Positions 290 through 45,560 of a stretch of DNA of 46,934 bases are shown in pieces. The DNA comes from an archaeon (lineage in GTDB: Archaea > Nanobdellota > Nanobdellia > Pacearchaeales > GW2011-AR1), in assembly GCA_018697295.1 (NCBI GenBank), contig JABHTJ010000006.1, positions 69,133 through 116,066 of the forward strand, given 5' to 3'. Each line of letters begins with the position of its first letter. Position 1 is the first letter of the stretch. The notes below the pieces were generated by a model. The model ran no database searches, had not been told where the DNA came from, and saw only the letters and a list, made by a program, of their open reading frames with translations. The translations under genes were made by a program, and so were the position numbers.

Positions 290-1201
290 ATGGAAGAAAA
301 CAAAAAAGCAGTCGTCCTCTATTCTGGCGGACTAGACTCTCGATTAGCAATCTGTCTCTTAGCCGAGCAAGGTTTCGAAATCACCGCACTCTACTTTAAT
401 CTCCCGTACGGATGCGGATGCTGCAACTTAAACTGCAACTTCAACTTCACGCAAAAAAATGAAGTCAAACTAAAAGTATTCGATGTAACAAAAGAACCTT
501 ATTTATCTGAATACTTAGAATTAATAAAAAACCCTAAATACGGAACAGGAGCCGGAATAAATCCTTGTAGAGATTGTAAGGCTTACATTTTCAAAAAGGC
601 CAAAGAGTTCGCGGATGAGAATAATATTGATGTTATAGCGACTGGAGAAGTCTTAGGACAGCGTCCAATGTCGCAAGTCGGTCCAGCAATGAAAATAATC
701 GACAATGAAATAGGTTATGAAATGCTAAGACCACTTTCAGCAAAACTCCTAAAAGAAACTTCGTGGGAAAAATCCGGTTTAGTCGACAGAGAAAAGCTCT
801 TAAAAATTCAAGGAAGGGGAAGAAAAGAGCAAATGGCACTTGCCGATAAATTCAAAATCAAGTATCCAACACCTGGCGGAGGATGTCTTCTTTGCGAAAA
901 AATTCCAGCAGCTAGACTTAAAATTCTCTTAGAAAAAAATCTCGTTAACGAAACAACACTTCCACTTAGCATCTGCGGAAGACATTTTATGATTGATGAT
1001 GTTTGGTTTGTGGTTGCAAGAAATGGGAATGAATGCGACGTAGTTGACAAATTCGAAAATTCGATTATCGGAGATAAAGGCCAACCTTCGGTTTATTTTT
1101 CAAACGAATCGGGAAAAGATATTGCCGGAAAATTACAAATAGCGTATGAAACCGGAGATAATGAAGAGAAAAGAGATAAGTTTGAAAAGTTTAAAATTTA
1201 A
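290..1201 (+). CDS. PP-loop ATPase, ThiI/MnmA-like tRNA thiolation enzyme candidate
   Basis: 303 residues. The N terminus carries the PP-loop signature SGGLDS (12-17), which binds ATP for adenylating a substrate such as a tRNA base. Cysteine pairs follow at 42-45 (CGCC), 93-96 (CRDC) and in GGGCLLC (197-202); they could carry sulfur or bind metal. The segment ATGEVLGQRPMSQ (117-129) is typical of the ThiI-like branch of PP-loop proteins. The C terminus (about 225-285, with ICGRHFMIDD and VVARNGNE) resembles the NFACT-R type RNA-binding domain known to be fused to some ThiI-like proteins. The likely job is sulfur insertion into tRNA; the target base cannot be read from sequence. The stop overlaps the convergent neighbour by four bases (TTAA). 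Confidence 0.75.
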   Translation: MEENKKAVVLYSGGLDSRLAICLLAEQGFEITALYFNLPYGCGCCNLNCNFNFTQKNEVKLKVFDVTKEPYLSEYLELIKNPKYGTGAGINPCRDCKAYIFKKAKEFADENNIDVIATGEVLGQRPMSQVGPAMKIIDNEIGYEMLRPLSAKLLKETSWEKSGLVDREKLLKIQGRGRKEQMALADKFKIKYPTPGGGCLLCEKIPAARLKILLEKNLVNETTLPLSICGRHFMIDDVWFVVARNGNECDVVDKFENSIIGDKGQPSVYFSNESGKDIAGKLQIAYETGDNEEKRDKFEKFKI

Positions 1202-3357
1202 TTACCGCTACGTTTCAACAATTCCTTCAACTTTGCTTGGTCAGCACTACGATCCTTAATTTTCAAAACTTCAAATAAATTCTTCTCTCCAATAGATCCA
1301 CCATTACCAACAGTCACCTCTCGGAGAAGTTTCTTTCGAATCTCATCTGAAACCAAAACTTTTTCCCGAGCAGAATCTGAAATTCGTTTAGCAAATGAAA
1401 TAGTATTCCCAACACTTGTATATTTGAGTTTATTATTTGTCTTAGAGGCAATTAGTTCTCCAGAATGAACACCAATGCTAAAGTCAATTTTTTCCTTGTA
1501 TTTTTTATTATATTCTCGTAATTTTCCAAGAAGACTAACGGCAGATTTAACTGCCAAAATTTCATTCTTATATGTTCGAGTAACAATCGGAGAATAAAGA
1601 ACGAACACAAATTCTCCTCGCCAATCAACAAGGCCTTTCGTAGATTCTAAGCCATAAATTATTTTTTGCAATTCTCCTTTTGCATGTTCCTTAAGGTCAC
1701 CATAATTTTTAATCGAAAGAGAAATTACTGAAGAGATATGTTTTTCTCCTTTCAAAACTAAAGAAGATTCTGCAACAACGGCATGTTTCTTTGTCATGTC
1801 AACCAAAGTTTTATCTTCAACATTTTTCCCGCCTTCAAGTCCAGCAACTTCTGGAGATTTTTTTGTAAAATTAAGGCTGTTATCTATTCCCGATTTTACT
1901 CCAGGACTCAAATGAGAAGCAACACCTTTTTTCGCCCGAGTCATAGTCTCCATAATTTTTTTCCCAGACTTAGAGGCAACGCCATCTCCTTTCCCACCAA
2001 CATCTTTCATTAGATTACTTTTCTTCCCAAGATTCTTCGTTTTTTTAGAACGCACAAATAATACAATAACAATTGATCCAAGGATTACAATCAAAAAGAC
2101 CCAAATAATTGAATAGTTCTTAAAGAATCCAACATCTTCTAAGTCACTAATTCCAACAGCATTTCCCGTAACTAATGAAAGTTGCCTCTCAACTGTTTGT
2201 TCTCCATCATCTACAAGAACATTATATTCTCCAGGATTTTCTCCCTTAAGCGCAAATTTTCGTGTTTCTCCAAGACCTAATTGAATTTCAATATCAAAAA
2301 GTTCCTCGCCAATCGTAACCGAAATCGTTTTATTAAAAACTACATTCCCAACATTTTTTACAATTAAAACAGAGTCCTCGAAATCATAGGTAGCTTTCAT
2401 ATTAGCAGCAACTTCGAACTCTCGAACTTCTTCAATATCGTGGAAATTTGCAATCACCATCCACGCACCTGCTGTAGAGTTTGGTAAAAATTCAATAGTC
2501 TTAAATGAATTTGCAGGAACACTCAATAAAATATCCTCTTCAGTATCGCTTGGAGAAACAATCGTAATACTTGTAAGACCTTCCATAATTTTTCCTGATT
2601 GGTCCACTATTTCTGTTCCAATATCAAAACTTTCTCCAGGAATTGCAACTGAATCAGATAGGCTAAGTAAAATTGAGCTCGGAATTTGATTAATCTCAAA
2701 AGCAACCTCTGTAGTGCCGGAATTCAAAATCTCTCCATCGACAAAATCATAGGTATATACTGTAAGAGAATAAGGTCCTGATTCGATAGTTTCAGGCATA
2801 TAAAATGTATGAACTAAATTTCCATTGCTCACTTCTTCACTAAAAAAAGTAGCTCCAGAACCTTCGATAAATCCTGCTAAGTTATCTCCATTAAATTTCG
2901 TAGCTTGGATGGAAACAGTAATCGGATCTCGAGGGTCAAAGGCAGTCTGATTAAGGGTAGCAATAACATTTACCTCTTTACTCACAACAAAACTTCCTGT
3001 TGAAATATACTCTGGACCAAGCGAAACTCCAATTTGACAGTTACCAACTACTGAAGTCAAATTTTCTACTTCTAAATCTGCTCGTATTAACTGTTTTTTA
3101 ATTTCTAAAGAAGATTCAGTCTCAAGGTCAAATGAAGTTGCAGGAAACCGAGCTAAATTAATAGTATTATTTTTACATGCAAGGTTCACATTAAGATTTC
3201 CAATCGTCGTCCCAATAATCCCATCAATTCGAATATAGATTTCGTCTCCGAGGTTATATACTGGGTCTGGCTCATTAATACTAATAGCTGCAGACGAAAG
3301 AGAAATAGCCAAAACACTAAATAAAAATGCGATCACCAAAATCCTTTTTTGTTTCAT
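1198..3357 (-). CDS. Receptor-like membrane protein with degenerate class III cyclase domain
   Basis: 719 residues. A signal peptide (1-23) is followed by an extracellular part of beta-rich, Ig/macroglobulin-like segments (about 25-395), the motif VTGNAVG (396-402), one membrane span (about 415-436), a basic cytoplasmic linker and a C-terminal domain (about 540-700) resembling adenylate/guanylate cyclases, e.g. FSIGVHSGELIA and YTSVGNTISFAKRI. The residues that class III cyclases use for metal and base are mostly replaced: the first Asp position reads SLSI, the second reads RGE instead of GD, and the GDxVN motif reads GNTIS; only the Arg remains. It is therefore probably a sensor or scaffold, not an active cyclase. 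Residues 310-404 are similar to the protein at 18886-19698. A TATA-like TTTAAATAC lies about 22 bases before the ATG. Confidence 0.75.
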   Translation of the reverse strand: MKQKRILVIAFLFSVLAISLSSAAISINEPDPVYNLGDEIYIRIDGIIGTTIGNLNVNLACKNNTINLARFPATSFDLETESSLEIKKQLIRADLEVENLTSVVGNCQIGVSLGPEYISTGSFVVSKEVNVIATLNQTAFDPRDPITVSIQATKFNGDNLAGFIEGSGATFFSEEVSNGNLVHTFYMPETIESGPYSLTVYTYDFVDGEILNSGTTEVAFEINQIPSSILLSLSDSVAIPGESFDIGTEIVDQSGKIMEGLTSITIVSPSDTEEDILLSVPANSFKTIEFLPNSTAGAWMVIANFHDIEEVREFEVAANMKATYDFEDSVLIVKNVGNVVFNKTISVTIGEELFDIEIQLGLGETRKFALKGENPGEYNVLVDDGEQTVERQLSLVTGNAVGISDLEDVGFFKNYSIIWVFLIVILGSIVIVLFVRSKKTKNLGKKSNLMKDVGGKGDGVASKSGKKIMETMTRAKKGVASHLSPGVKSGIDNSLNFTKKSPEVAGLEGGKNVEDKTLVDMTKKHAVVAESSLVLKGEKHISSVISLSIKNYGDLKEHAKGELQKIIYGLESTKGLVDWRGEFVFVLYSPIVTRTYKNEILAVKSAVSLLGKLREYNKKYKEKIDFSIGVHSGELIASKTNNKLKYTSVGNTISFAKRISDSAREKVLVSDEIRKKLLREVTVGNGGSIGEKNLFEVLKIKDRSADQAKLKELLKRSGN

Positions 3358-3479
3358 GGTGTAATGAATAACTTTTAGTATTTAAATTTTATGAAGCCCA
3401 AAAATTCTCAAAATTCTGCCAACATCTTTTAAAATATTCTCCATAAAGTTTTTTATACGTCATTTTCGCAATATAATCA

Positions 3480-4616
3480 ATGAAAAGTAGTAAAAAAACA
3501 AAAGTAATCGTCGCAATGTCTGGCGGAGTTGATTCATCAATCGCAGCTTTGCTAATGAAAGAAAAAGGTTATGATTGTATTGGAGTTTTCTTAAAATGCT
3601 GGAGTCCAAGCAAAACATTTTCTGGAGAATGTCAGTGGAAAAGTGAGCGAAGATTTGCACAAAAAATTTGCGACAAGTTAGACATGCCATTAATCACTGT
3701 CGACGCTGAAAAAGAATATCGGACTTATGTAATTGATGAAATGTTTAAGGATTATCAAAAGGGAATTACTCCAAATCCAGATGTATTATGTAATGAGGCT
3801 GTCAAATTTCCTTTTCTCCTCCGAGAAGCAAAAAAATTCCATGCAGATTATGTAGTTACTGGCCACTTTGCACGAATAAAAAAATCAAAAAACAAAGTAT
3901 ATATGTATCGTGCAAAAGACGAATTCAAAGATCAATCCTACTTCCTCTACAGATTAAAGGAGGCAGATCTAAAAAAAGTTCTCTTTCCAATAGGAGAATA
4001 TACCAAGGAACAAGTCAGAAAAATCGCTAAAGAAAATGGATTTCTAAATCACGAAAAAAAGTCAACTGTTGGAATCTGCTTTATCGGTAAAACAAACATG
4101 AAAGATTTTCTAAAAACAAAAATCAAACCAAAAAAAGGAAATATTCTTGATACAAACGGGAATATAATCGGAACTCACGACGGTGTTTATTATTATACAA
4201 TTGGGCAAAGACTAAGGCCAAAAATTGGGCTAAAAATCCCAAAATCAACCGATAATCCCAAACTAATGTCAAAATGGTATGTCGCAAAAAAAGACATCAA
4301 GAAAAATATTCTAATTGTAGCGCCAGAAGGAAATAAAAATCTTCTAAAAAATTCTTTTGAGATTTTAGAATTCCACTTAATCACTGATAGCGTTCCAGAT
4401 TTCAAAAAAAGCATTTCAAAAAAAGCAAAATTAGTCCACGCAAGAATAAGGCATGTCGGAGAATTAATTCCTGCTTTAATCTCCTACGATAAGAAAACAA
4501 AAAAAACCTCACTAAAGCTAAAAAAGAAATTAACTGGAGTCTCAGATGGCCAAGCAGTAATAATTTATCAAGGAAAAAAGGTTCTCGGCGGCGGCGTAAT
4601 CTCTGAATCTGCCTAA
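3480..4616 (+). CDS. mnmA: tRNA-specific 2-thiouridylase MnmA
   Basis: 378 residues, close to the usual MnmA length. MnmA makes 2-thiouridine at the wobble U34 of tRNA, using ATP and sulfur relayed from a cysteine desulfurase. SGGVDSS (14-20) is the PP-loop. The two catalytic cysteines are present: C104 in NPDVLCNEAVKF and C200 in STVGICFIG. GHFARI and the DQSYFLYRL segment are family hallmarks. The C-terminal half matches the central and beta-barrel tRNA-binding domains. MnmA is a bacterial and organellar enzyme that is uncommon in archaea, so transfer into this lineage is likely (inference). A TATA-like TTTTTTATACG lies about 24 bases before the ATG, consistent with a leaderless mRNA. Confidence 0.93.
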   Translation: MKSSKKTKVIVAMSGGVDSSIAALLMKEKGYDCIGVFLKCWSPSKTFSGECQWKSERRFAQKICDKLDMPLITVDAEKEYRTYVIDEMFKDYQKGITPNPDVLCNEAVKFPFLLREAKKFHADYVVTGHFARIKKSKNKVYMYRAKDEFKDQSYFLYRLKEADLKKVLFPIGEYTKEQVRKIAKENGFLNHEKKSTVGICFIGKTNMKDFLKTKIKPKKGNILDTNGNIIGTHDGVYYYTIGQRLRPKIGLKIPKSTDNPKLMSKWYVAKKDIKKNILIVAPEGNKNLLKNSFEILEFHLITDSVPDFKKSISKKAKLVHARIRHVGELIPALISYDKKTKKTSLKLKKKLTGVSDGQAVIIYQGKKVLGGGVISESA

Positions 4617-4657
4617 ACCACCAAAATATTTTAAAACGTCATCAACAGTTCTTTCTA

Positions 4658-5386: not shown

Positions 5387-5430
5387 CCGAGAAACAACAC
5401 CTTTAAAATCTCTCACAACTTTCTAGTGAA

Positions 5431-6027: not shown

Positions 6028-6063
6028 CAATACAATTTTAAACAAGTAATCCTTGCATCTCAG

Positions 6064-7142: not shown

Positions 7143-7148
7143 CATAAA

Positions 7149-7157
7149 TTATATAAA
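7149..7157 (+). promoter_or_regulatory. TATA box of the cupredoxin gene
   Basis: TTATATAAA is centred about 25 bases before the ATG at 7179, the distance expected for an archaeal leaderless transcript. The same arrangement recurs before most genes that start a transcription unit in this window. Confidence 0.6.
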
Positions 7158-7178
7158 CTTCTCAGACCTAAAAAACAA

Positions 7179-7691: not shown

Positions 7692-7729
7692 CCCCAAAAT
7701 CTTTAAACTATTTATAACAATATAATTTT

Positions 7730-14539: not shown

Positions 14540-15433
14540 ATGAAAAAAGTTTTGATGTTAGTTTTTATCTTAATCTTGGCAGGGAATGTCCTCGCTATGG
14601 ATGGTCCAATAACTGTTCAAACAGAGCCGGGAAATCATGTTAAAATCTATACATGGATGCCAGATGGAGGACCATTGCTGGATCTAGTTGAAGGAGATGC
14701 AGATGAAGAGGGATTGTTTTCTACAATCTTTTTTGCATTAAATGAACCTACAGTAAAATATCAGGTAAGAATCTTAAGTGGTCTTAGTCCTATTACTGAA
14801 GAAACATTCGAAGGAAAAGGAATCGAAAATCCGCTTTGGATTGACTGTCTTTCAGGAGAATGCATAATGACTATTGACACAAGGGTTATTGTTAAAGAAG
14901 AGCCAGAAGAAACAAATTCAACTGAAGAAATAGAAGAAGAAATCAACTCGACAGAAGAAAATGAAACAAATTCCACAAATGAAACGATGGAAGGACTTCC
15001 TCAAGAAATTACAGAAGAAGAAATTACAGAAGATTCAAGCAGTTTCCGAATTACAGGAAATGCAATTTTAACAAAAGATGACGGTTCTATAAGGAAAAGT
15101 CTCATTTATGGATCAATTCTTCTTTTCTTTTTAGTTATGGTTTTTATGATTGGAATGTCGCACCGAAAAAATCCTGAACTGAAGGGAATGCGCTATAAAG
15201 AAAAGGAGCTAAAGAAAATAGAAAAGGAAATCAAGACAAAAGAAAAAGCAATAAGAAATGTTAAGGAATCAAATGAACGTAAAATGAAAATTGAAGAAGC
15301 GAAGAATAAATTAAGAGATGATGAAAAAGAATTAGATTCCTTAGAAGAAGATAGTTCTGGATTATTGCAGGCTAAAGAAAAACTATATCAAAAAGAAAAT
15401 GAGTTAAAAGAACTCGAAGAGAAAAAAGAGTAA
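14540..15433 (+). CDS. Exported membrane protein with ITGN motif and cytoplasmic coiled coil
   Basis: 297 residues. Signal peptide 1-19, a beta-rich outer domain (20-120) with ITVQTEPGNHVKIYT and a Cys pair (CLSGEC), then an acidic linker with repeated N-S-T sequons (about 125-165) that could be N-glycosylated. The motif ITGNAI (171-176) stands about 14 residues before a membrane span (188-206). The C-terminal 90 residues are a Lys/Glu coiled coil on the cytoplasmic side. Such a layout suits a surface domain tied to an internal partner. A TATA-like TTTTATAAAT lies 25 bases upstream. Confidence 0.7.
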   Translation: MKKVLMLVFILILAGNVLAMDGPITVQTEPGNHVKIYTWMPDGGPLLDLVEGDADEEGLFSTIFFALNEPTVKYQVRILSGLSPITEETFEGKGIENPLWIDCLSGECIMTIDTRVIVKEEPEETNSTEEIEEEINSTEENETNSTNETMEGLPQEITEEEITEDSSSFRITGNAILTKDDGSIRKSLIYGSILLFFLVMVFMIGMSHRKNPELKGMRYKEKELKKIEKEIKTKEKAIRNVKESNERKMKIEEAKNKLRDDEKELDSLEEDSSGLLQAKEKLYQKENELKELEEKKE

Positions 15434-18885: not shown

Positions 18886-19698
18886 TTACTTCCGGCTCTT
18901 AACTTTCTTCTTGCTCTTCTTACCTTTGCCTTTCGCCATTCGTCGTTCAACAAAAACAAGTGCTCCAATAACCAAAACAGCAACAACAAATATCATTGTA
19001 AAAGAATATTTCTCTTTTGATGCGGCATTATTCTCTAAATTAGAGGGGTCAGTCGCTCCAGCAAATCCAGTATAACCAACTAAATCTGGATCAACAGCTC
19101 CGATAACATTTCCTGTTCCAAAAAGTTGAATATTCTCTTTTTTCAATGTTACTTCGCCATCAGTAACTTCGATATCATAAAATCCTTCAGGAGAAACAAC
19201 CTTCAATCGCTTTTCTCCTCCAACTCCAATGTTCTGTTTATAAGAATTTATTTCATCTCCAATTTTAATCTGAATTGTTTTTGTATATGCAGTATTACCA
19301 TTATTTCGTATCACAAGTTCATCTCCTTCAATCAAGAATTCTATATCCGAATTTTCTCCAACCGAAAAAGTTCGCGTAACTTCTACATCATTATATGTCT
19401 CAGTTATTTCCCAAAGTCCTGACCGAAAATCAGATTCTACAAGAACGCCTTCTTCTTCATTTGAATTAATAGTCTTCACAATTTCCTTTTTTTGCAAAGC
19501 ATCATTCAAGACAACTTCTACTTCTCCCAAAAGAATATTTGAGTCTTCCAATAAAATTACTGTAAATAAAATGTCCTCGCCAATCATATATTCTGCAGAT
19601 TGCAATCCAGAAATATCTATAGAATATTCAGCTGTTGAAAATGCTACAAGTGAAATAATCATCACTCCAATCACCAACATAAAATCTCTTAATTTCAT
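18886..19698 (-). CDS. Exported single-span protein, paralogue of the cyclase-like receptor's outer domain
   Basis: 270 residues. Signal peptide 1-23, beta-rich outer part, GTGNVIG (194-200), Asn/Ala-rich linker, membrane span 232-251 and a very basic short tail. Residues about 108-206 align by eye with residues 310-404 of the 1198-3357 protein: TRTFSVGENSDI with REFEVAANMKAT, LVIRNNGNTAYTKTI with LIVKNVGNVVFNKTI, and FGTGNVIGAVDPDLVGY with VTGNAVGISDLEDVGF. So the two share a membrane-proximal module, but this one lacks the cyclase-like part. The function is unknown. A TTTAAATAGG box lies about 28 bases upstream. Confidence 0.7.
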   Translation of the reverse strand: MKLRDFMLVIGVMIISLVAFSTAEYSIDISGLQSAEYMIGEDILFTVILLEDSNILLGEVEVVLNDALQKKEIVKTINSNEEEGVLVESDFRSGLWEITETYNDVEVTRTFSVGENSDIEFLIEGDELVIRNNGNTAYTKTIQIKIGDEINSYKQNIGVGGEKRLKVVSPEGFYDIEVTDGEVTLKKENIQLFGTGNVIGAVDPDLVGYTGFAGATDPSNLENNAASKEKYSFTMIFVVAVLVIGALVFVERRMAKGKGKKSKKKVKSRK

Positions 19699-19784: not shown

Positions 19785-22429
19785 ATGAGGAGAAAAAAAT
19801 TTAGTGTTTTAGGTTTGGGATTATTAGTTGTCACTTTTTTAGTCCAATATTTTTCTTTAATGGATTTGATTTCAAAACTACTGGATTTGCAGTCTTAAGT
19901 GATTCTTCGTCTGGAGATTTTGATAATGGAATTTATGTAAATACTGTCCATAATGGGACTGGAGTTATTTTGTCAGGAGATAATCTAACAGGAAACTTCA
20001 CAAGTCAAATTTTTGATGCAACTGGAGATGCAACTTGGAATAATCTAACTTGGACAGGTTCAAAACCAAACATTATGTTCAAATATGCAGTTGACGGAGC
20101 AGGAGATATTTTTTCTTCGATAGATTTGACTACATGGACTCAGCAAGTAGATAATTATGGAAGAACGTCAGATACTCAAGAAATGTTTTCATATGGAGAT
20201 TATCTATATATAATTTCGAGTTCAAACAGAGAAGTTTGGAGATCTTCAACAGGTTCTTCTTGGTCGGTAATTAATGATACTTTTGCAGATTCTGGTCTTC
20301 TCGTCGCTGAAGCTCACTCAAATGGAGATTTATTCATCGGAGATGCTTCCGGAGACGTATATCTATCGACAGATTATGGACAAACATGGACAACAAAAGG
20401 AGATTTTAATGGTGGGTCAACAAGCAATGCAAAAGGGATGGGAATAAGTTCAACGGGAGAAATTTTTATTATCGATGGTGGCAAAGCACTTTTTTCTTCA
20501 ACAGATTCGGCAGATACGTGGTCGGAGATAACTAATGACTATACTGGAAGTGGTGCCAGTTTAGATGATTTAGAAATTGATAGTTCTGGAAACCTCTATA
20601 TCTTAGATGCAAAAGACGTTTGGAAATCAAGCAACTCGGGAGTAAGCTGGACAATCATCAATGATAGTTTCACACCATATTCAAATGAGGGTCTTAAGAT
20701 GTTCATCGATTCAGATGATAATTTTCGTATAACTGATGCCGCAGGAAGAGTTTTCTCCTCGACAGATTCCGGAGTAACGTGGATTGAATATGGCGATTTT
20801 AATGGAGGAGCTTCAAGTAACTCAAAAGGTTTTGCACTCTTTGCTCAACAAACAAATATCTCCTACCAATTCATGAATTGTTCTACATCGGACTGTAGCG
20901 ACGGAACATGGCAAACAGGAGATTTAGAAAATATCAATCTTCAATCAAGATATTTTAGATACGTGGCCTCATTCTCGACACCAGATTCAAGTTCAGGTCC
21001 AATTATCCAAACAGTAACTACAAATTATGATTTATCAAATTCTGCTCCAACAATTGACTTAACTTCTCCAACAGCAACAACATATGATTACAACACATCT
21101 CTTCCCTTAAATTTCACCGTTACCGATGCTGATAGTAATTTAGATGCTTGTTGGTATAATCTTAACGGTGGAGCAAACACTACCTTAACCAGTTGCGCAA
21201 ACACAACATTTAGTATAATTGATGGAGCTCATACGCTAAATCTTTTTGCAAACGACACATTAGGTTCGGAATCTTCGAGCAGCGTAAATTTTAACGTTGA
21301 TTCTACTGGAGTTACATCAACATTAATCGAGCCAACCGGAACAAAAACTTCAAGGACAACAATTCCGTTCAATTATACTGTTCAAGGAAATAGCCTTACG
21401 TGTTGGTATAATGTAAAAACTTCAATTGGCGGAGATGTTATTGACAACACGACACTTGCAAGCTGTGCAAACACCACATTTGACGTTTCATCCGACGGAG
21501 ATTACATCGCAAATTTATTTGTAAATAATACTTTTGGAACTTCAAATACTACAAGCACTACCTTTACTGTAAGTACTTCAGATACATCTGGGGGAGATAG
21601 CGGCTCATCCGGAGGAGGCGGCGGATCTTCTGGGGGCGGCTCATCCGGAGGAGGCGGCGGAAGTGGAAGTTATAATCAGCCTCAATTTGAAATAGGTCCT
21701 GTCTCGGCAATAATTTCTATCGGAGAAGAAAAGAATTTACAAGTAAGTGTAAAAAATACCAAACTTACTTCTGCTAATAATTGCAAACTTACTGTTTCGC
21801 AAGAATATTCAGATTATGTCGGGGCTGAAGAAATACAAAGTATAGCTGGAGGAGGAATTTTTGACTTTAGTTTTATCCTAAATGCAATCGACGAACAAGT
21901 TCAAAATGTTGGACTAAGTATCGGATGTCTAGATGAAATCACTCAGGAAATTCCTCTTGAAATCGTTTTATTATCTCCTGAGCTAGATATTTCTTTTGAA
22001 AAAATTTCTTTTGATTCAGAAGAAGAGTTACTTATTGAGTATTCTGTAGAATCATTATTTAATGTTCAAAAAGATTTAGTATTCAAATTAACAAATTCAA
22101 ATGGTGATGTCGTTAAGGAAGTTACAAAATCAGTAGATTTAGTGAGTGGAGAAATAGTTCAAGGATCTATTCTAATAGAACTTTCTGATGTTGAGAAGGG
22201 AATGGTTAAAGTTTCAATTTCAGAAGAAAATTCTGAACCAATCGTCGAAGAGAGCATAATTTATGGTGGAGCTGGAATTGGGACAGGATTTACTCTATTC
22301 AACTCCGGAGAAAATATCTCCCCAACTGGAATAGTCATTCTTGTCTTTTTAGTACTCTTATTCTTTGTTCTAAGAAGAATCTGGAAATTAAGAAAAGGTG
22401 CTAAACCTGCCAAGAAAAAGAAAAAATAA
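19785..22429 (+). CDS. Large surface protein with Asp-box propeller, frameshifted after the signal peptide
   Basis: The ATG at 19785 starts a signal peptide (MRRKKFSVLGLGLLVVTF), but that frame stops soon after. The main frame continues from there without a stop (FFFNGFDFKTTGFAVLSD) to 22429. One extra T in the T6 run at 19835-19840 would join them. The body has BNR/Asp-box repeats (STDYGQTW, STDSGVTW, SSNSGVSW), a sialidase-like beta-propeller; then two Ig-like repeats each with CWYN and SCANTTF; a Gly/Ser linker; a long beta-rich domain; and a C-terminal membrane span (VILVFLVLLFFVLRR) with a basic tail. It is probably a cell-surface binding protein. If translated from 19970 alone (819 residues) it would lack a signal peptide. 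Confidence 0.75.
21601..21660 (+). repeat. 24-base tandem repeat coding a Gly/Ser linker
   Basis: The 24-base unit beginning CGGCTCATCCGGAGGAGGCG occurs exactly at 21601-21624 and 21637-21660, offset by 36 bases in frame. It codes the GSSGGGG linker between the Ig-like and C-terminal domains and is far richer in G+C than its surroundings. Confidence 0.8.
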
Positions 22430-31556: not shown

Positions 31557-32282
31557 TTACAAACTTGAGGCTCCAAAAATCCCGCCAATTTCAATATCAC
31601 CAACAATTCCTTCGAACGTCAATTTCGGTTTTTGAACACCGATGGCATTTGAAACAAAACCATTTCCCACATCTCCAAGAAAGTTTTTAATCACAATCGA
31701 TTCGTTTTTCGCTTCAAATTGTATCTTCTTTCCATCAAGTTCAATAACCCCATTATTCGTCGTTTCAAATTTCTTTATAGTAACTCCTTCGGCAAAAAAC
31801 GATCTATATGTAAGTGGTTCTTCTAAAGAAACACTAAATGCTCTATCGACGAGAGAAACAGGCAAACCATTAACTGTAAGTTTGTCTGCTTTTCCACTAA
31901 GCCGCACTACTTGCTCACCATTAAAAGATAATCGTCCCTTAAAATTTTTGATTGAGATTTTAGTATTTTCTTCTTCAGATAAATTAATAACATTGTCTCC
32001 AAAAAAGATCTGACCAGAATTATCCTCTACTTCGATTTTTATCTCTTCAATTTCCTGATTAACCTCGATAGTGCTATCAAGCCAATCTAATTGGGCATAC
32101 AAGTCAAATGAAGTTTCTGGATCAATCGTTGTTCCAATCACATTTCCAGTTATTGGATTATCCTCAAAAGAAAATAAAATTAGCGCAAATAAAATTAATA
32201 TGAAAAAGCCAGTAACAAGTAAACTTTTTCGTCTTTTATGGTGGTGCGTATCTGCAAAATTTCCTCGTAGTTTTGTGGCCAT
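31557..32282 (-). CDS. Membrane-anchored beta-rich protein with ITGNVIG motif
   Basis: 241 residues. A His-containing basic start (HHHKRRKS), one membrane span (about 20-38), then ITGNVIG (44-50) six residues after it, and a beta-rich outer domain with alternating hydrophobic residues (IEIDGKKIQFEAK-like strands). I do not recognise the fold. Its ATG overlaps the stop of the PH-domain gene (TAATG), so the two are translationally coupled. The function could be surface scaffolding. Confidence 0.65.
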   Translation of the reverse strand: MATKLRGNFADTHHHKRRKSLLVTGFFILILFALILFSFEDNPITGNVIGTTIDPETSFDLYAQLDWLDSTIEVNQEIEEIKIEVEDNSGQIFFGDNVINLSEEENTKISIKNFKGRLSFNGEQVVRLSGKADKLTVNGLPVSLVDRAFSVSLEEPLTYRSFFAEGVTIKKFETTNNGVIELDGKKIQFEAKNESIVIKNFLGDVGNGFVSNAIGVQKPKLTFEGIVGDIEIGGIFGASSL

Positions 32283-32795: not shown

Positions 32796-35700
32796 CTAAT
32801 CTCCGGCAACAGAATCTCCAAAATAATCATTAACATCATCACCTTCAACATCCCAAATCCAAAGTCCTGTTTTTCCATCGTAAACTCGAACTTTAGTAGG
32901 AATAAAAAATGGCTGAGTTATTCCATATGCGGCAATAAAATCTTCATGTTCGTCATCATTTATGTCTGGAATACTCTCCAGCTTATATCCAAGAATATTT
33001 CCATTAACCCCACTTTTCTGCCACAAAAGAGTTCCGGTTTCAAGATTATAAGAAAAAATAGTCCCGGCATAATTGTTATCTTGAGAATATTGACTAACAA
33101 TCAGTCTCTCTTTTCCAATCGAATTTTCGACAATTGCAATTTGAAGGCCAAAATTATCATAGGCATCATTTCCTTCAAAAGAAGTAATAAGTTCTAAGGT
33201 ATTTGAGTCATAAATAAAGACTCTTCCTTGATTTTGTAATGTTCCACTATCATAACTTCCAGCACTAATCACAATTTCGTCATAACCATTGTCATTTAGG
33301 TCAGAGATGCTCAAAACATTTTCTCCGAAATTATCCAAGTCATTTTCTCCTTCGATTACGTGAAGTATCGTCCCATCAGAGCCATCCAAAATATAGACTT
33401 TCCCTTTAACTCCAATAACGGCACCAATTTGAGATGAGCCAACAAGAACGTCGGCAACTCCATCCCCCGTAACATCTAAAATTCCGGAAAGACCTTTTCC
33501 AAAAGATAAAACATTACTTAGGATAAGTTGATCAGTTACCCAAATGACTTCGCCGGTAGCACCATTAAGTGCATATACTCGTCTAGGATTTTGAATTGTT
33601 GGATTAATGTTATGGTAAGCCCCCACAAGAAGATCTTCAAATCCATCTCCAGTTATATCATAAATTGAAGAAACAGAGCCTCCTAAAAAATCATTATTCC
33701 CTTCAAGAGACCAAATTTCATTTCCTGTAGCGGAGTCAAATGCATAAATTTTTCCTTGGGCAAATGGAGCAACATAATCATAAAATGGGGCCGTAGAAAT
33801 AGTATACTTTTCTAACCCTCCTTGAACTGTTGTCATTGCATGCCCGAAAAAATCTCCGTCCTCTTGACCTTCGCGAAACCATCCGGCATTTCCCGTAAGT
33901 GAATCGTAAGAATAAATTTTCCCTGTATTCGAACCTGCAATTCCGTCAAAAGATCTCGCACCAACATAAAAATTATGTGGGTCGCAATTTTGACCAAGAG
34001 GGCAAAGATTTCTCTCATAAGTTATTTCTAAATAAGGGGGCCAATTAGATTCAGAAGTATAAAAGTAAGCAAATTCATTAGAGTTAGCCGTTGGAACAAT
34101 ATCGTCTGCATCAAGTTTCGAACGAATACAAATCTGGCTTTTCCCTATCAAATTCATATTAGAAATTCCATGTTCATTGAGTTGAACAGACTTATAGTTT
34201 CCTGTCTGAAGAGAATTTATATTTATCTCTCCAAGGTACTCTGTCGATGAAACTGGGTTAATTGTATCTCCACATTCATCATAATCTCCTCTAACTAATT
34301 CATCAAAATTTGTCCTAGTAGACTCTAATAAAACCAGCTCCCCACCACCCTTATTGTGCGTATTAAGATAAAGTTTTGCATCTTGAATATCCATATTATT
34401 AGGGATTGCCGCAGTATCAAAACTCATAAATCCTCGACGTATAAAAAATAAATCATTTGGTTGTGAATAATCTCCAAAGACTCCCATAAGAATTCCAAAA
34501 TAACTTGGATATTCTCCAAGAGGATAATCGTGTATAAAATTCCAATCATCACTAGAAGATAAAACATAGCCATCTCCTTCATCTGAATAAATAATTGCAG
34601 TACAAGTTCCATCCCCATGGTCCTGATGCCCCTCTCCACATTCATTATTTTCGATAGAATATCCTGAGTCAAATCCAACCGTAAGTTCATTAAAGTGGCT
34701 CGAACAATAGCTCTCTCCCATTATACTTTTTGACTTAACGGCATAGACATAATTTTCTTCAGGAACGCTCGTATAATCTCTGTATGTCATTTCCACAACA
34801 TCTTCTGCAATTGGATTTCCCCAACAGTTTTGATTTCGATAAACATCATAAGTATACCCTTCACTTAATTGCGCTTCCCAAACAATTTCAACATAATCTC
34901 TGAGTCCATCGCTTGCATCAATATTGTAGGGGGTACTGGTCTCACAATTATATTGGCAAGTTGCCCAATTAGAAACTATTCCTGCAGTATTGTCTGCAGT
35001 CAGAGCATTATCTCTTTGGGTAAGTCCGGTAGGAACGCCATCATAAGAAATACTTGGATTGGAAAAATAAGGCATAAAACTTCCAGGACTATAGGCCATA
35101 ACAGTCTTCCATTCTGTTCCTAAATTCCCTATAAATCGATGACCATGAGAATAAGAATAAACTGCTCCGCTACAAGATCCATCTCCGGGAGCATGACACA
35201 TTCCTTGATTGTGTCCAACTTCATGAGAAACAACGGAGATGGAAAAACAACCTGGATCGAATTTATTTACACTAAAGGGTCCAAGGACATTTGCATATCC
35301 ACAGGCACCAACAATATCTCCAAGAAATACTACAATATCAGCACCATATTGCGCTCTCAAGGTATGGACATTATCCATATAACCGTCTCCATTTCCTGAA
35401 AGTCTATTCATATCAGTTTGATAGCTTCCTGCCTCAACATAGTTCACTTGGGAAGTATGAACTTCTCTAAATCGGGTTATAGTCTCACTATTTTCTTGAA
35501 TCGTATTCATCTCAAGCATGATTTCTCTTATTTTGAGTTCCATTGCCGCATTTCCTCCTGCAAGAATTTTGGCTGCAGGAGTATATACGAAAAGAATATC
35601 GATTGGAACAATATCTCCTGACATCAGGGCAAGTGGTTGCCCTTTTGGTTGAGCAATAACATCTCCCGGCAAAATTCCCTCTCCGTCAATTGGTGGAAGG

Positions 35701-36266
35701 CTATCCAATCTTGTTTGAACAATTTTCGTCTTCGCAAGTCCTTCACAGGCCCGATTAGTTGCTCGAGAATATCTTCCATCAGTTCTTGGAATAAAATATA
35801 CTAGTGAATATACATAATCACTATTTGGAACATTTATTCTTCCAACAAGCGCTTCGCCATCAACAACAAATAAAACACTTCCATCATTCGCAACATAATC
35901 TGCAGTTCCATCTTCTCGTTCATCAACTTTAGTCAAGTATATTTCAAAATTCTCTCCAAATTCATCGAATAAAACAACTCCTTCTTTTAATTTTTCAATA
36001 TCGACACAAAATTCTTTCTCAGTAACCGCTGCTCCAGTCCCTGTTTTTTGTTGCAGCGAACTAAAAGGGTACAAAAAATCTGAAGAATCGGCGGGGCTTA
36101 GCTGTGGAACAGAATCTTTCAAATAAAATGAATCAATAATCAACATAAGCGCAACAGTAATAAATAAAGTGATAAAAATTTTAAACAGGAAATTACGGTT
36201 CAAGTTTGAATCAATACGAAATTTTTTATCTACCTTTTTTGAAGGCAAAACCTTTTTCTTCACCAT
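32796..36266 (-). CDS. Giant surface metalloprotease with DNRLRE-like and FG-GAP propeller domains
   Basis: 1156 residues. N-terminal anchor (26-46), a pro-like region (80-220), then a metzincin (reprolysin/M12B-like) catalytic domain (about 220-430) with zinc motif HEVGHNQGMCH (348-358) and a Met-turn VMAYS (389-393). A fibronectin-III-like domain (443-530), a DNRLRE-type domain (570-750) with FIRRGFMSFDTAAIP, and a beta-propeller (770-1156) of FG-GAP repeats such as DITGDGFEDLLVGAY follow. The first propeller blade starts half-way and the protein ends in a half-blade (DVNDYFGDSVAGD), a velcro closure that argues the stop is genuine. It likely digests host or neighbour proteins at the cell surface. 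Confidence 0.82.
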   Translation of the reverse strand: MVKKKVLPSKKVDKKFRIDSNLNRNFLFKIFITLFITVALMLIIDSFYLKDSVPQLSPADSSDFLYPFSSLQQKTGTGAAVTEKEFCVDIEKLKEGVVLFDEFGENFEIYLTKVDEREDGTADYVANDGSVLFVVDGEALVGRINVPNSDYVYSLVYFIPRTDGRYSRATNRACEGLAKTKIVQTRLDSLPPIDGEGILPGDVIAQPKGQPLALMSGDIVPIDILFVYTPAAKILAGGNAAMELKIREIMLEMNTIQENSETITRFREVHTSQVNYVEAGSYQTDMNRLSGNGDGYMDNVHTLRAQYGADIVVFLGDIVGACGYANVLGPFSVNKFDPGCFSISVVSHEVGHNQGMCHAPGDGSCSGAVYSYSHGHRFIGNLGTEWKTVMAYSPGSFMPYFSNPSISYDGVPTGLTQRDNALTADNTAGIVSNWATCQYNCETSTPYNIDASDGLRDYVEIVWEAQLSEGYTYDVYRNQNCWGNPIAEDVVEMTYRDYTSVPEENYVYAVKSKSIMGESYCSSHFNELTVGFDSGYSIENNECGEGHQDHGDGTCTAIIYSDEGDGYVLSSSDDWNFIHDYPLGEYPSYFGILMGVFGDYSQPNDLFFIRRGFMSFDTAAIPNNMDIQDAKLYLNTHNKGGGELVLLESTRTNFDELVRGDYDECGDTINPVSSTEYLGEININSLQTGNYKSVQLNEHGISNMNLIGKSQICIRSKLDADDIVPTANSNEFAYFYTSESNWPPYLEITYERNLCPLGQNCDPHNFYVGARSFDGIAGSNTGKIYSYDSLTGNAGWFREGQEDGDFFGHAMTTVQGGLEKYTISTAPFYDYVAPFAQGKIYAFDSATGNEIWSLEGNNDFLGGSVSSIYDITGDGFEDLLVGAYHNINPTIQNPRRVYALNGATGEVIWVTDQLILSNVLSFGKGLSGILDVTGDGVADVLVGSSQIGAVIGVKGKVYILDGSDGTILHVIEGENDLDNFGENVLSISDLNDNGYDEIVISAGSYDSGTLQNQGRVFIYDSNTLELITSFEGNDAYDNFGLQIAIVENSIGKERLIVSQYSQDNNYAGTIFSYNLETGTLLWQKSGVNGNILGYKLESIPDINDDEHEDFIAAYGITQPFFIPTKVRVYDGKTGLWIWDVEGDDVNDYFGDSVAGD

Positions 36267-38291: not shown

Positions 38292-38361
38292 ATAATCATT
38301 CTCACAACACTATTAATAAATGTTTGTCATAATTTCTTGATTAAATAAGGCCTTCTAAATT

Positions 38362-39579: not shown

Positions 39580-39649
39580 AGAATTGAATAAAAAAGTGAG
39601 TATAAAAGTTGAGCGGTTTTTAAAAATCAAGAGTTATCTTAAAAAAATG

Positions 39650-39985: not shown

Positions 39986-39991
39986 TCTCCA

Positions 39992-41371: not shown

Positions 41372-41467
41372 GGGGAAAAAACGCACATTCGCTTTATAAA
41401 AATTATTGTGGTGTGAAAAGATTAAGGGGTTTCTCTGCAAAAAGAAGGAGATTTAATTCAAAAATTC

Positions 41468-41962
41468 TTACTTGCCCAATTTCAAAAAACCTTTCAATTC
41501 TCCAATAAATTCCACAGAATCTCCAGCTAAACGGTCCTCATATTCATCAATTGTCGTTCTAATAATATATCTATCATAAATTCCTCTCAAAAACTTCCAG
41601 ATTGCTTTCTTTTCCCATTCTCCGTCATAATCTCGTATAAGTGTTGATTCAACTTTAATCTTAACTTCTCCCTTATTTGTTGAAGTCCTCTTCCCATCAA
41701 TTTCAACTTCCGTATCAACCATCTTTCGAATAGACCAACTAGTTTTAATAAGATTCTTAAAATAATCACTAACTTTTTTTGGAGATTCCCATTTCAAATT
41801 AATTTCCTTTCCATCTGGAGAAATTTTTTCTTCATATTTGTGTTCCTCGACGCGATAACCCTTGTCTTTAAGAAAAGCAAATGCAGTATCGTATAACTCT
41901 CGATAATCAAAATGTCCTTTTTGCTTTAACTCTTGAGAAAATACTGTCTTTTTTATAGCCAT
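41468..41962 (-). CDS. Conserved-looking hypothetical protein
   Basis: 164 residues, soluble, basic and acidic residues alternating, with a helix at the start (YRELYDTAFAFLKDKGYRV) followed by beta strands (EINLKWESPKKVSDYF, SIRKMVDTEVEIDGK, EVKIKVESTLIRDYDGEW) and a terminal helix. I recall similar single-domain proteins in DPANN genomes, but no function. A TATATCTAAT-like box lies about 25 bases before the ATG on the minus strand. Confidence 0.65.
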   Translation of the reverse strand: MAIKKTVFSQELKQKGHFDYRELYDTAFAFLKDKGYRVEEHKYEEKISPDGKEINLKWESPKKVSDYFKNLIKTSWSIRKMVDTEVEIDGKRTSTNKGEVKIKVESTLIRDYDGEWEKKAIWKFLRGIYDRYIIRTTIDEYEDRLAGDSVEFIGELKGFLKLGK

Positions 41963-42022
41963 GACTTCTACAAATAAATTAGATATATAAATGTTTTGAG
42001 AAATCTATTCCACCAAAAGTAT

Positions 42023-43342
42023 CTAATAAGAAGTACACTCAAAAAATTGAAAATCTTTTTCTAGTTCTTCTCCAGAGGAAATTGTCAACTCCATAATATT
42101 ATTGTGGTTACCTACGGGAAGGCCAGTGATCCCAACAATATATTCTCCAGGGGTTAAATCAGTTTCATAGTCTCCGTCAACAACAGAAGTTAAGACATTT
42201 GATTCTAATAATTCTTCAAAAGATTGATCTTCAGAAATAAATTGAGCCCATTCATCAGCATCAATAAAATAAGCATCTCCATTAAATAATGAATATTCTT
42301 TCTCTGGGCAACCGACCCCACCACAAGGCATACAATCTCCGATACCTGATTTAATATTCCCTTTTATGCTAGTATCTGAATCGTCATCATCGCTATCATC
42401 ATCGCCATCTGAATCATCGTCATCATCTGAATCGTCATCGTCATCTTCTTCACCAACCACCTTTCCAATAAATTCTACTGCTTGTTTAGCAAATTTCTCT
42501 GCATTTTCTGCTAGAGATTCTGCTGCCTGAAAGTTTCCTTTCTCAAACATTTCTTTAGCTTGTCCAAGTTTCTTTCGAGCAGCCTCTAATCGTTTTTCAG
42601 AAGCAGAAGTCTCTTCACCCTCGGCAATTGCTTCATTAATCTTATTCTCAGCTTCTTCAATTTCTTTTTCGGCTTCTTCAATTTCTTCCATTGCCTCATT
42701 TTTATCAGAAATTCCATGCTTTTCCTTAAACTTAGCTTCTACTTTTTTATAATCTCCACCTTTTAGTTCAATCTTAGTTTTCGATATACCTTTTTCATTT
42801 TCTATTTTAACTTTCAATCCATCAACATCATCTCCAAAGCTCGCAATAAATTCATCCAGTTTTTGTTGTTGTTCTTCAGTTAGTTCACCTTTAATTTCAA
42901 TTTTAATCTTAAGATCTTTATTTACTGCTTCGACTTTCTTTTCATGCGCCTTAACTTTTTCTTCAATTCGTAATTTTAATTCTAATTCTTCAGTTTCATC
43001 ATCGACTTCAACCTCGTCCAAATCAGATTTAATTTTCAAGACAAGTTTAGTGTGTCGTTTTTTTGCTCGTTCCATAGCGTTTAAATTTCCTTCAAGCCCC
43101 ATTTCCCATGCTTCGGATAATCGCTCTTCAGAATTTTTTATTTCTCTCTCAAGTTGTTTTTCATCGTCAAAAGTAAATGCTAAACCGATATTTTCTGAAG
43201 CAATATCAATCAAATAAAAAACGCTATCTGGGTTAACTCCAGCGTCGATTACCTCTTCTCCTTCAATAACTGCTGCAAAGACCGGCGATACTAAGAATAA
43301 GGCTACTACAAAAAACACACTAAATTGTTTCATCATTTTCAT
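42023..43342 (-). CDS. Exported DUF5667-like protein with long helices and poly-acidic region
   Basis: 439 residues. Signal peptide 1-23. Residues 30-130 (VNPDSVFYLIDIASENIGLA and the following Lys/Glu helix) match the DUF5667-type domain of exported proteins. Long Glu/Lys helices continue to about 290, then an almost pure Asp/Ser run (about 297-328), which may bind cations, and a C-terminal Cys motif (CMPCGGVGCPEK) with a beta-rich end. There is no second membrane span. A TATA-like AATTTTATAAAT box lies about 27 bases before the first ATG. It may be a secreted or surface-associated calcium-binding protein; that is inference from the Asp run. Confidence 0.65.
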   Translation of the reverse strand: MKMMKQFSVFFVVALFLVSPVFAAVIEGEEVIDAGVNPDSVFYLIDIASENIGLAFTFDDEKQLEREIKNSEERLSEAWEMGLEGNLNAMERAKKRHTKLVLKIKSDLDEVEVDDETEELELKLRIEEKVKAHEKKVEAVNKDLKIKIEIKGELTEEQQQKLDEFIASFGDDVDGLKVKIENEKGISKTKIELKGGDYKKVEAKFKEKHGISDKNEAMEEIEEAEKEIEEAENKINEAIAEGEETSASEKRLEAARKKLGQAKEMFEKGNFQAAESLAENAEKFAKQAVEFIGKVVGEEDDDDDSDDDDDSDGDDDSDDDDSDTSIKGNIKSGIGDCMPCGGVGCPEKEYSLFNGDAYFIDADEWAQFISEDQSFEELLESNVLTSVVDGDYETDLTPGEYIVGITGLPVGNHNNIMELTISSGEELEKDFQFFECTSY

Positions 43343-43382
43343 AGAGATTAGAGTTTTCTTTTATTTATAAAATTTGTGTAAA

Positions 43383-43706
43383 TTACTTCAACTTAACTGC
43401 AGTTCCATACGCTAACATCTCGCTTGCACCCTGCATGATCATCGACGTCATAAATCGAACACCGACAACAGCATCAGCACCTTTTTCTAAGGCTTCGTTA
43501 ATCATTCGGTTAAGCGCTTCTTCTCGAGATTGCTTAATCATTTCAGTATAGGTTTTTACCTCGCCACCGATGATGCTCTTCAAACCAGCTCCAATGTCTC
43601 GGCCAATATTCCTTGCTCGAACAGTATTTCCCTTAACAACTCCCAAGTTCTCAACAATCTTTTTTCCAGGAATTTCATTAACAGTCGAAATAATTATATC
43701 TGCCAT
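43383..43706 (-). CDS. YbjQ-family small beta-barrel protein (UPF0145)
   Basis: 107 residues. The start, IIISTVNEIPGKKIVENLGVV, followed by VRARNIGRDIGAGLKSIIGGE, YTEMIKQSREEALNRM and EKGADAVVGVRF are the YbjQ/UPF0145 signature. The family forms pentamers or decamers, is sometimes called a heavy-metal-binding domain, and has no proven biochemical role. The ATG overlaps the preceding small membrane protein's stop, so they are coupled. Confidence 0.92.
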   Translation of the reverse strand: MADIIISTVNEIPGKKIVENLGVVKGNTVRARNIGRDIGAGLKSIIGGEVKTYTEMIKQSREEALNRMINEALEKGADAVVGVRFMTSMIMQGASEMLAYGTAVKLK

Positions 43707-43927
43707 TATTTCTTAGGGCTCACAGACTTTTTATATTTTACTTTTTCAATTTCGTCTTCTCGTTTGGAATTAATTAACATATATATTCCAACTCCGATAA
43801 AAAATAGCCCAAAAATTATTGAAATGATAATTTCTTCAAAACCATTCGATGTCATCAGCCCAACTATCAAAAGATATATTCCCAAAAGTCCACTAACAAT
43901 TCCACTAACAATTCCTGGGAGATTCAT
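43706..43927 (-). CDS. Two-span small membrane protein
   Basis: 73 residues from the ATG at 43927 (MNLPGIVSGIVSGLLGIYLL). A TTG 18 bases earlier opens a slightly longer frame, but CAATTTTATAGT lies about 25 bases before 43927 and supports it. Two spans (about 4-22 and 31-50) are joined by a short loop, and the C terminus is basic and charged (KREDEIEKVKYKKSV). First gene of a two-gene operon with YbjQ. The function is unknown; YbjQ might act at the membrane with it. Confidence 0.6.
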   Translation of the reverse strand: MNLPGIVSGIVSGLLGIYLLIVGLMTSNGFEEIIISIIFGLFFIGVGIYMLINSKREDEIEKVKYKKSVSPKK

Positions 43928-44005
43928 GCAATATGAAATGCCCAAGACTATAAAATTGTTTCTAATATTAAAAACATTTAAGTAGTATTTTCAACCCAAT
44001 TAAAC

Positions 44006-44538
44006 ATGGCAAAAAGAGTGATGATTGTCGATGATGACTGTGATGATCTAAGTACTATGAAGGAAGTTCTTGGAAAAGAAGATTATGAGATTGCGACCGC
44101 AAGAAATGGGGAAGAAGCATTCGATTTATTGACTAAGAAAAATTATGACTTAATTTTAATAGATATTAAAATGCCGACACTAACGGGATATGACTTATTA
44201 CGATTAATGAGAAAAAGAATTGACCACAATGCAAAAATGCTCTACATTTCAATTGTTCCAAAAAGTGATGTGGATATGAAAGATATGCGGAAATTGAAGG
44301 AGAAAAAAGTACCTTAGAATTATTAAAAGAAAAGAAAATTAAAAAACCAAGTGAAAGAAAATTAAAAGCTGAAATAAAAAAGGCAAATAAAAAAATTGAA
44401 AAGAAGGGAAAAAGAAATAAAATTTTCCTAAGTATTAGAGGATTATTCAAAAATATTTCAAAAAAGATAGGCAATAAAAAAGTAATAAATTCCAATAAAA
44501 CTAAATTTAACAAGAATAAAAATTTAAAATGGAAATGA
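44006..44538 (+). CDS. Response-regulator receiver domain, frameshifted near its end
   Basis: The frame from 44006 gives 103 residues of a receiver (CheY-like) domain: acidic pocket VDDD (8-11), phosphoacceptor D53 in LIDIKMP and S82 in YISIV. It then stops at 44317, before the conserved Lys-Pro of the last strand. One extra A in the A6 run (44303-44308) would open the frame to the TGA at 44538 and give KKIKKPSERKLKAEI, i.e. the missing Lys-Pro plus a basic tail of about 75 residues. That frame is stop-free for about 75 codons and is coding-like. No histidine kinase is in the window. The tail overlaps the start of the next gene by ten bases. Confidence 0.65.
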
Positions 44539-45560
44539 AATCTTTTAGAGTAGTAATTCCGATAAGTGTAATGCTCGGAGTAATTCTGATAATGGTAATT
44601 TTTAGTTTTCAAGTTAATCCTTCAATGAGCATAACCGGAAATGTCGTCGGTTATTCAGATGATGGAAGTCCAATTGAAGAAAAAATAGAATTCAAAAAGA
44701 TAACAAAAACAGAGGCTCAGAACTCAATTGAAGAAGCAGAAAAAATAATTGAAGAAATGTCTTCACAAAATATGCCTACAAATTACGTAAAAGATTTATT
44801 AATAGATGCAAAAACAATTATCGGACAAGCAGATAATGCAGAAATCGTAAGGGGAAGTGTGGAGGCAACAAAATATGAAGTTTCACAAGCAAAAATAGCA
44901 CTTAGTTTAATCAACTGGGAAAATATCTTTTACAGCGACGTAATAAGTTATGCCGATAAGATAAAAAATCGCCAAGAAGAAACAGTTCTCTTATATGATA
45001 AGCTCTCAATTGAGGAAAGTAAAATTAAACAAAAAGAAATAGAACTAGAAGGGAATATTTTTACATCTCCTCCAAGCGAAATTTCTTCAACAACACAAGA
45101 AATACTAGAAGAGGCAAAAATCGCATTTGAAGCAGATAGACTTACAGAAGCAGAAATCTTAATTGACGAATTCAGAAAAGTTGTAGAAGAAGAAAAAGCG
45201 CAAGAATCAACAATTTCTGGAATAAAAAGTGGAGCAAAAAATTTCTTCCAAAGATACTGGATACATTTAATCATCTTAGCGTTTTTAATTTATTTTACTG
45301 GACGTTTTATATACAAAAAATTTGAAAAAAGAATCATAAAAAATAAAATTAAGACAATGAATGCTAAAAAGATAGTTTTGACAAACCTAATAAAGAAAAC
45401 TCAAGAAGATCATTTTAAGAAAAATATAATTTCTGGATTTGTATACAAAATTAGGATGAATACCTACAAAGAAGGAATTCAAACAATAAAACAAGAGCTC
45501 CCAGTCCTAGAACTTAGATTAAGAAAGTTAAGTGGGAATAAAAAGAAGTTAAAAAAATAA
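44529..45560 (+). CDS. Membrane protein with ITGNVVG motif and long helices
   Basis: 343 residues (or from Met3). Membrane span 8-26, then ITGNVVG (35-41) nine residues later, a long outer helical region (55-235) rich in Glu/Ala/Ile, a second span (244-262), and a basic C-terminal helical tail of about 80 residues (KIKTMNAKKIVLTNLIKKTQ). Both termini should be inside with a coiled-coil outside. The C-terminal pattern, with FVYKIRMNTYKEGIQTIKQELP, recalls other DPANN membrane proteins that I cannot name. It overlaps the restored end of the response regulator gene, so the two may be an operon. Confidence 0.7.
   Translation: MEMKSFRVVIPISVMLGVILIMVIFSFQVNPSMSITGNVVGYSDDGSPIEEKIEFKKITKTEAQNSIEEAEKIIEEMSSQNMPTNYVKDLLIDAKTIIGQADNAEIVRGSVEATKYEVSQAKIALSLINWENIFYSDVISYADKIKNRQEETVLLYDKLSIEESKIKQKEIELEGNIFTSPPSEISSTTQEILEEAKIAFEADRLTEAEILIDEFRKVVEEEKAQESTISGIKSGAKNFFQRYWIHLIILAFLIYFTGRFIYKKFEKRIIKNKIKTMNAKKIVLTNLIKKTQEDHFKKNIISGFVYKIRMNTYKEGIQTIKQELPVLELRLRKLSGNKKKLKK

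Follow-up and report, generated by a model that had tools for sequence, protein, structure and literature searches.

A hydrophobic-T-G-N-(V/A)-(I/V) motif on the outer face of unrelated membrane-anchored proteins is a probable recognition tag in Pacearchaeota

A short linear motif, hydrophobic-T-G-N-(V/A)-(I/V), was found to recur on the outer face of unrelated membrane-anchored proteins of Ca. Pacearchaeota, and we consider it probable that the strings represent one motif under selection with a general role in recognition. Six of them lie in a 46,934-nt stretch of DNA (hereafter the window; C9:69133-116066 of genome G000, which comprises 731,777 bases in 9 contigs), and the positions and strands given for them in the first-pass annotation all read correctly from the sequence. 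VTGNAVG (2152-2172, minus strand) lies on the outer side of carrier 1 (1198-3357, minus; 719 aa), a receptor-like protein composed of a signal/anchor, an outer domain, a span and a cytosolic nucleotide-cyclase-like domain, and stands 15 residues ahead of the second span, which was placed by hydropathy, as were the spans below, at residues 417-435 (2053-2109, minus). ITGNAI (15050-15067, plus) is on the outer side of carrier 2 (14540-15433, plus; 297 aa), a protein with an N-terminal signal/anchor, an acidic stalk, a span and a charged coiled-coil-like tail, and stands 11 residues ahead of that span (residues 188-206; 15101-15157, plus). GTGNVIG (19099-19119, minus), also on the outer side, precedes by about 32 residues the C-terminal span (residues 232-250; 18949-19005, minus) of carrier 3 (18886-19698, minus; 270 aa), which ends in a basic tail and is a paralogue of the outer part of carrier 1; the paralogy had been proposed before, and both proteins indeed match one 680-aa family member (L163:781). 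ITGNVIG (32133-32153, minus) and ITGNVVG (44631-44651, plus) were found 5 and 9 residues past N-terminal anchors, the former in carrier 4 (31557-32282, minus; 241 aa; anchor at residues 21-39, 32166-32222, minus), an anchored protein with no recognised fold, and the latter in carrier 5 (44529-45560, plus; 343 aa; anchor at residues 8-26, 44550-44606, plus), which continues with an outer helical domain, a second span and a basic tail. The sixth string, TTGFAVL (19877-19897, plus), is a variant with F in place of N, right behind a probable N-terminal anchor that comes from another frame. The 23 window ORFs with spans contained five matches to TGN[AV][IVL], against an expectation of 0.06 from 2000 shuffles, none of which gave more than two; the 27 soluble ORFs of the window contained no match.

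Three further features of the window were recorded. The cyclase-like domain of carrier 1, behind its span, is of class III (PF00211, E=2.5e-5, 24.4 bits against a cut-off of 21.9), and orthologues of the protein occur in G026, G236 and L163; in archaea this reduced, signalling cyclases would be unusual. A large exported protein (19970-22429, plus) has its apparent start in another frame (MRRKKFSVLGLGLLVVTFLVQYFS, ~19785), with a frame shift before TTGFAVL, and the frame change at 19785-19897 (plus) may reflect faulty assembly, a gene that is broken, or a genuine shift. Finally, 32796-36266 (minus) encodes a 1156-aa exported protein with a reprolysin-like metalloprotease region and PQQ/FG-GAP propeller-like repeats, which on these sequence features is a possible surface protease.

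The motif is confined to the outer parts of exported proteins across the genome and in relatives. The sample consisted of the whole of G000, parts of genomes G026, G236 and G015, and 20 further stretches of relatives (Ca. Pacearchaeota), two Candidatus Pacearchaeota records being among the closest named relatives when a MutS-like gene near the window is compared; ORFs were called greedily, topology was assigned from hydropathy and the positive-inside rule, and counts from the MAGs, which are incomplete, were pooled without correction for the kinship of the genomes. In G000, TGN[AV] was observed 13 times on the outer side within 40 residues of a span, against 0.4 in shuffled sequences, and twice on the inner side (0.1 shuffled); soluble proteins held 3 copies (2.2 shuffled) and distant outer parts 1 (1.3 shuffled). 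When 4-mers were ranked by enrichment in the outer juxtamembrane segments of this genome without guidance from the motif, TGNV and GNVV came out on top. The strict form, [ILVMF]TGN[AV][IVL], gave 58 matches among proteins of one to three spans (230,769 aa from G000 and the samples of relatives) and no match in 2,095 soluble ORFs (481,863 aa), a comparison in which the choice of the 20 stretches for holding the DNA pattern introduces a bias towards the motif and not towards exported over soluble proteins. The G236 sample had 13 outer copies and that of G026 six, with none in soluble proteins of either, while the strict form was scarce in the partial sample of G015. The density of the relaxed motif per 10,000 residues was 9.03 in outer segments near a span, 2.22 in outer segments far from one, 1.35 on the inner side and 0.19 in soluble proteins, whereas the control patterns (permuted GT, reversed, T-to-A) stayed at 0.08-0.75 in every compartment; shuffles and controls together rule out chance and juxtamembrane composition. 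By our own reading, five of the six apparent inner-side cases are topology errors, and in one G000 carrier (C7:4616) the side of the motif is ambiguous. Thus the proposal of the first-pass annotation that the strings are enriched in exported proteins and follow the outer face whichever protein end is involved was supported in the window, in the genome and in the relatives: exported proteins were far above shuffled expectation, and the cytoplasmic side and soluble proteins did not reach the same frequency.

The five strings in the window, which had been counted as four independent occurrences, all belong to a larger set, since G000 as a whole has 14 carrier proteins. Read from their sequences, the others include a parvulin-like foldase, a cupredoxin, an M64-like metallopeptidase and a signal peptidase I whose match to TIGR02228 is below the cut-off. 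This signal peptidase I is short, has VTGNVL behind its anchor and is encoded at C6:147353-147850, and a second signal-peptidase-like gene lies at C1:37085. Carriers in relatives include branched-chain-type substrate-binding proteins, a nuclease, DsbA-like proteins, a subtilase and giant surface proteins. No Pfam or NCBIfam model covered the motif in hmmscans of the window carriers and of carrier examples from relatives, and NF033506 was matched by S-layer proteins only.

The consensus is specific to position and is conserved among orthologues. A residue scan of outer segments gave observed-to-shuffled counts of 40/3.0 for T, 40/3.0 for G and 27/0.3 for N, followed by V (28/1.5) or A (12/1.5) and then I (24/1.6) or V (16/1.4); the first position is hydrophobic, with I best, and the N position also tolerates A, R, F and K. 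Orthologues of the carriers, which are about 25-40% identical overall with diverged flanks, keep the core hydrophobic-T-G-x-(V/A)-(I/V), with N, A, K, F, H or S as x at the same place. Orthologues of carrier 1 have MTGNVI, LTGAAI and LTGKAV at residues 392-398, matching VTGNAV; an orthologue of carrier 2 in RIFOXYB2_FULL_43_25 (L143) has LTGKSI for ITGNAI; those of carrier 4 have ITGNVI (G006) and ITGFTI (G025) at the same place; and those of carrier 5 have FTGFVV (G010), FTGFAV (G005) and FTGHAV (G021) for ITGNVV. Among 31 DsbA-like homologues the site behind the anchor was kept in about three quarters, in variants such as VTGNVV, ITGGAI, ITGKVV, ISGQAI and a tandem FTGSIITGGTI, and lost in the rest; since many anchored proteins also lack it, the motif is not obligatory for anchoring. 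Judged from these alignments, N is a preference and the core consists of T-G with its flanking hydrophobics. The N being replaceable in orthologues, it is unlikely to be a modified residue, and N-glycosylation at this position was rejected for the same replacements (A, K, F, H, S) and for the missing N-x-S/T: as the first-pass annotation had pointed out, position +2 is I, V or similar. STT3 is present in 46 of 56 relatives, and canonical N-x-S/T sequons on the outside had ratios to shuffled sequences of 0.73, 1.49, 1.14 and 1.26 in four genomes, so that the sequon itself is not consistently enriched outside and is uninformative as a control. The lipobox was likewise set aside, the motif having no Cys.

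These data bear on whether the threonine could be the modified residue, for example by a membrane-embedded glycosyltransferase with hydrophobic-T-G-x-(V/A)-(I/V) as its sequon. The strong preference for T, the background level of the T-to-A control and the presence of S in place of T in 6 of 29 DsbA-like orthologues all point that way, and copies that are numerous, at any distance from a span and in any topology, with flanks that look exposed, would suit co-translational modification on the outer face. In the residue scan, however, S (11/4.2) did no better at this position than V (9/3.2) or N (9/3.1), G and both later hydrophobics are as constrained as T, which is unusual for O-glycosylation, and just ~14 carriers per genome are found. 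We regard threonine modification as rather doubtful.

The motif has arisen independently in many places. Sixty strict instances were encoded by 55 distinct DNA words, which argues that the sequence is held at the protein level; together with the unrelated spans and cargo this rejects common descent of a single domain, as had been argued from the window alone. Twenty-seven of these instances follow a span, 7 precede one and 4 are in a loop between close spans, whereas for 22 the nearest span is over 40 residues away; these mostly sit in linkers rich in S, E and D, and one protein often has several of them. The distance of 6-32 residues from a span, originally given for the window, therefore does not hold for every copy. 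Of the copies behind an anchor, 22 of 27 stand 2-11 residues past the end of the span. Flanks are rich in S, G, E and D and look exposed, several carriers hold two to four copies, and giant proteins have tandem and repeated copies. A 3249-aa surface protein (L156:4802-14551, minus) carries tandem VTGSVVRGITGNSISNSGITGNVIRSFGITGNVVSG and is partly present twice. In addition, hairpins of the order span-ITGN(V/A)I-span-basic tail were found behind unrelated cytosolic domains in L150, L166/L167, L168 and G236 (C6:63439-63960), the domain in L168 being phosphoribosyltransferase-like. With the hairpin loop outside and the rest in the cytosol, the motif is almost the sole part of these proteins that is exposed. 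The C-terminal two-span hairpin looks like a reusable membrane module, and by eye the hairpins may be one related module.

This distribution is difficult to reconcile with several otherwise plausible functions. An LPXTG-type sortase signal was rejected because 27 of the 60 instances come after a span and another 22 have no span nearby, because several proteins have two to four copies, and because sortase is missing: PF04203 was over the cut-off in none of 56 genomes, G000 included, although the positive control matched three Gram-positive genomes. Cleavage after G by signal peptidase I, or by a different protease at the membrane surface, with release of N-anchored proteins, would agree with the hydrophobic residue at -3 and G at -1, with the 2-11 residue spacing behind the anchor, where a c-region would end, and with the presence in the genome of signal peptidase I (one of them a carrier), a rhomboid and a presenilin-type protease. 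Nevertheless, signal peptidase needs no V/A-I/V at +2/+3, a feature whose conservation in the motif is strong, and cleavage would leave the distant linker copies, the hairpin loops with cytosolic cargo and the copies before C-terminal spans unexplained; we give a protease site the least credence of the readings weighed here. Rhomboid was discarded as the reader, for it is over the cut-off in just 43 of 128 genomes of the phylum and is thus no lineage marker, even though all three sampled members of the family have it. A structural juxtamembrane element that needs no partner, such as a tiny G-N turn at the end of a helix or within the membrane interface, would account for a motif that is short, strand- or turn-like, hydrophobic at both ends and mostly near a span, and G-N is a favoured turn pair. 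Against it stand the 22 distant strict copies, the tandem copies within giant proteins, and the acceptance of K, F, H or A at the x position. A structural cap would also be expected throughout DPANN, whereas the motif is concentrated in one order, and this explanation appears improbable.

The pacearchaeosortase is the first named suspect as a reader. It is encoded in G000 at C7:121860-122474 (NF033505, 151.6 bits against a cut-off of 80, 2.1e-44); the exosortase model PF09721 missed this short enzyme, which the NCBIfam model finds. C92, R134 and H151 are invariant in 14 homologues, and within the family to which the window belongs, about 59 of the 63 genomes sampled have the enzyme. The adjoining gene encodes PACE-CTERM-PROT, a putative S-layer protein (NF033506), and the pair at L063:3071-5474 is the same as that at C7:120071-122474 of G000. 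If the motif were its recognition or cleavage sequence, the enzyme would cut or transpeptidate near T-G at the outer membrane surface on many proteins besides the S-layer protein next to it. In 5 of 13 loci this S-layer neighbour has the motif right before its C-terminal span, whereas among other C-anchored proteins 5 of 95 do (Fisher p 0.002); when the pattern was widened after inspection, the count for the neighbour rose to 7 of 13. The forms are FLTGGVIS, FLTGNIIS, FFTGLSIG, GITGLAIG or similar. The hairpins show the same order of motif, span and basic tail, and it is the S-layer neighbour and the hairpins that this reading fits best. Archaeosortases have been described to process a C-terminal motif-span-basic architecture (PMC11980579, PMC4343526). 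Across genomes of the class, the ratio of relaxed motif to control was 1.39 with an archaeosortase and 1.01 without (permutation p 0.005, uncorrected for phylogeny and GC), a co-occurrence that is suggestive. In contrast, the order that the architecture requires, with a span at most 40 residues behind the motif, is seen in only about 11 of the 60 instances, 27 following a span and 22 being far from one; the S-layer proteins of G000 and G026 are without the motif; other families with a pacearchaeosortase do not abound in the strict form; and in G033, which has the motif, the enzyme was not detected. Moreover, a cut behind an N-terminal anchor would mean release of the protein and not sorting. 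The S-layer neighbour data link the motif to the enzyme without making the enzyme its reader, and we consider processing by the pacearchaeosortase unlikely, though it comes second in our ranking, ahead of threonine modification. Recognition by an enzyme, as the first-pass annotation had suggested, therefore holds up insofar as the motif behaves as a recognition-type sequence, and less well in its enzymatic part, since sortase is absent and most carriers do not have the archaeosortase architecture.

The DNA pattern [IVM]TGN[AV][IVM] outnumbered its reversed control by 151 to 20 in 63 genomes of the family of the window and by 10 to 1 in seven genomes from other families of the order, while 90 genomes from the rest of the class gave a weak excess (94 against 58). 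A relaxed DNA pattern was high in some other lineages of the class and flat in many, with noisy, GC-dependent values. The best reading is that the motif is a tag concentrated in one family or order of Pacearchaeota. In the literature that was searched, no paper dealt with the motif or with the pacearchaeosortase.

We infer that one common factor reads the motif outside the membrane in all carriers. Among the possible mechanisms, our tentative first choice, made by fit, is that carriers dock non-covalently at an envelope factor they share, or are retained by it: this suits multiple copies, indifference to the protein end, loss in single orthologues and display on hairpins, and copies that are multiple, distant or in hairpin loops agree with docking without an enzyme no less well than with an enzyme. 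In such a mechanism the exposed, strand-like peptide would bind a common component of the envelope within the narrow gap that separates membrane and S-layer; anchored enzymes and receptors would gather there together with cytosolic proteins held by hairpins, and additional copies of the motif would increase affinity. We put forward with similar reserve the idea of a lineage-wide tag that is independent of orientation, whereby proteins that expose hydrophobic-T-G-N-(V/A)-(I/V), including by means of a hairpin, are gathered or processed by one envelope factor. If this were true, the motif would belong to a class of localisation signals unlike the known C-terminal tripartite signals, signal peptides and lipoboxes. 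DPANN archaea rely on cell contact, and the arrangement of their surface proteins is hardly known; the motif offers a sequence handle with which the surface set can be listed, proteins of unknown function localised and the reader searched for.

Among known systems, the closest is the pacearchaeosortase with PACE-CTERM-PROT, which occurs in the same organisms, is near-universal in the family and has an enzyme active site that is expected on the outer face, and whose S-layer target shows hydrophobic-T-G-x-x-I ahead of the C-terminal span in 5-7 of 13 loci; that system is an adjacent pair of enzyme and target, whereas the motif described here is found in dozens of unrelated proteins, mostly behind an anchor or in a linker. 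Similarly, PGF-CTERM/archaeosortase A, PEP-CTERM/exosortase, LPXTG/sortase and GlyGly-CTERM/rhombosortase each involve a short signature of unrelated surface proteins within one lineage that is read on the outside, and LPXTG shares T-G with the present motif, but these signals are C-terminal, tripartite and present once per protein, while the motif may stand at any end and be repeated. Its place directly behind the N-terminal hydrophobic segment of substrate-binding proteins, DsbA-like proteins and cupredoxins, which elsewhere are lipoproteins, recalls a lipobox; it differs in having no cysteine and in occurring also before C-terminal spans and far from any span. YSIRK-G/S of Gram-positive bacteria, a short motif as well, labels some of the surface proteins and influences their destination, although it sits within the signal peptide and not on the outer face. 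The N-glycosylation sequon of STT3/AglB likewise has an N on the outer face; the motif described here has no S/T at +2, and its N can be replaced.
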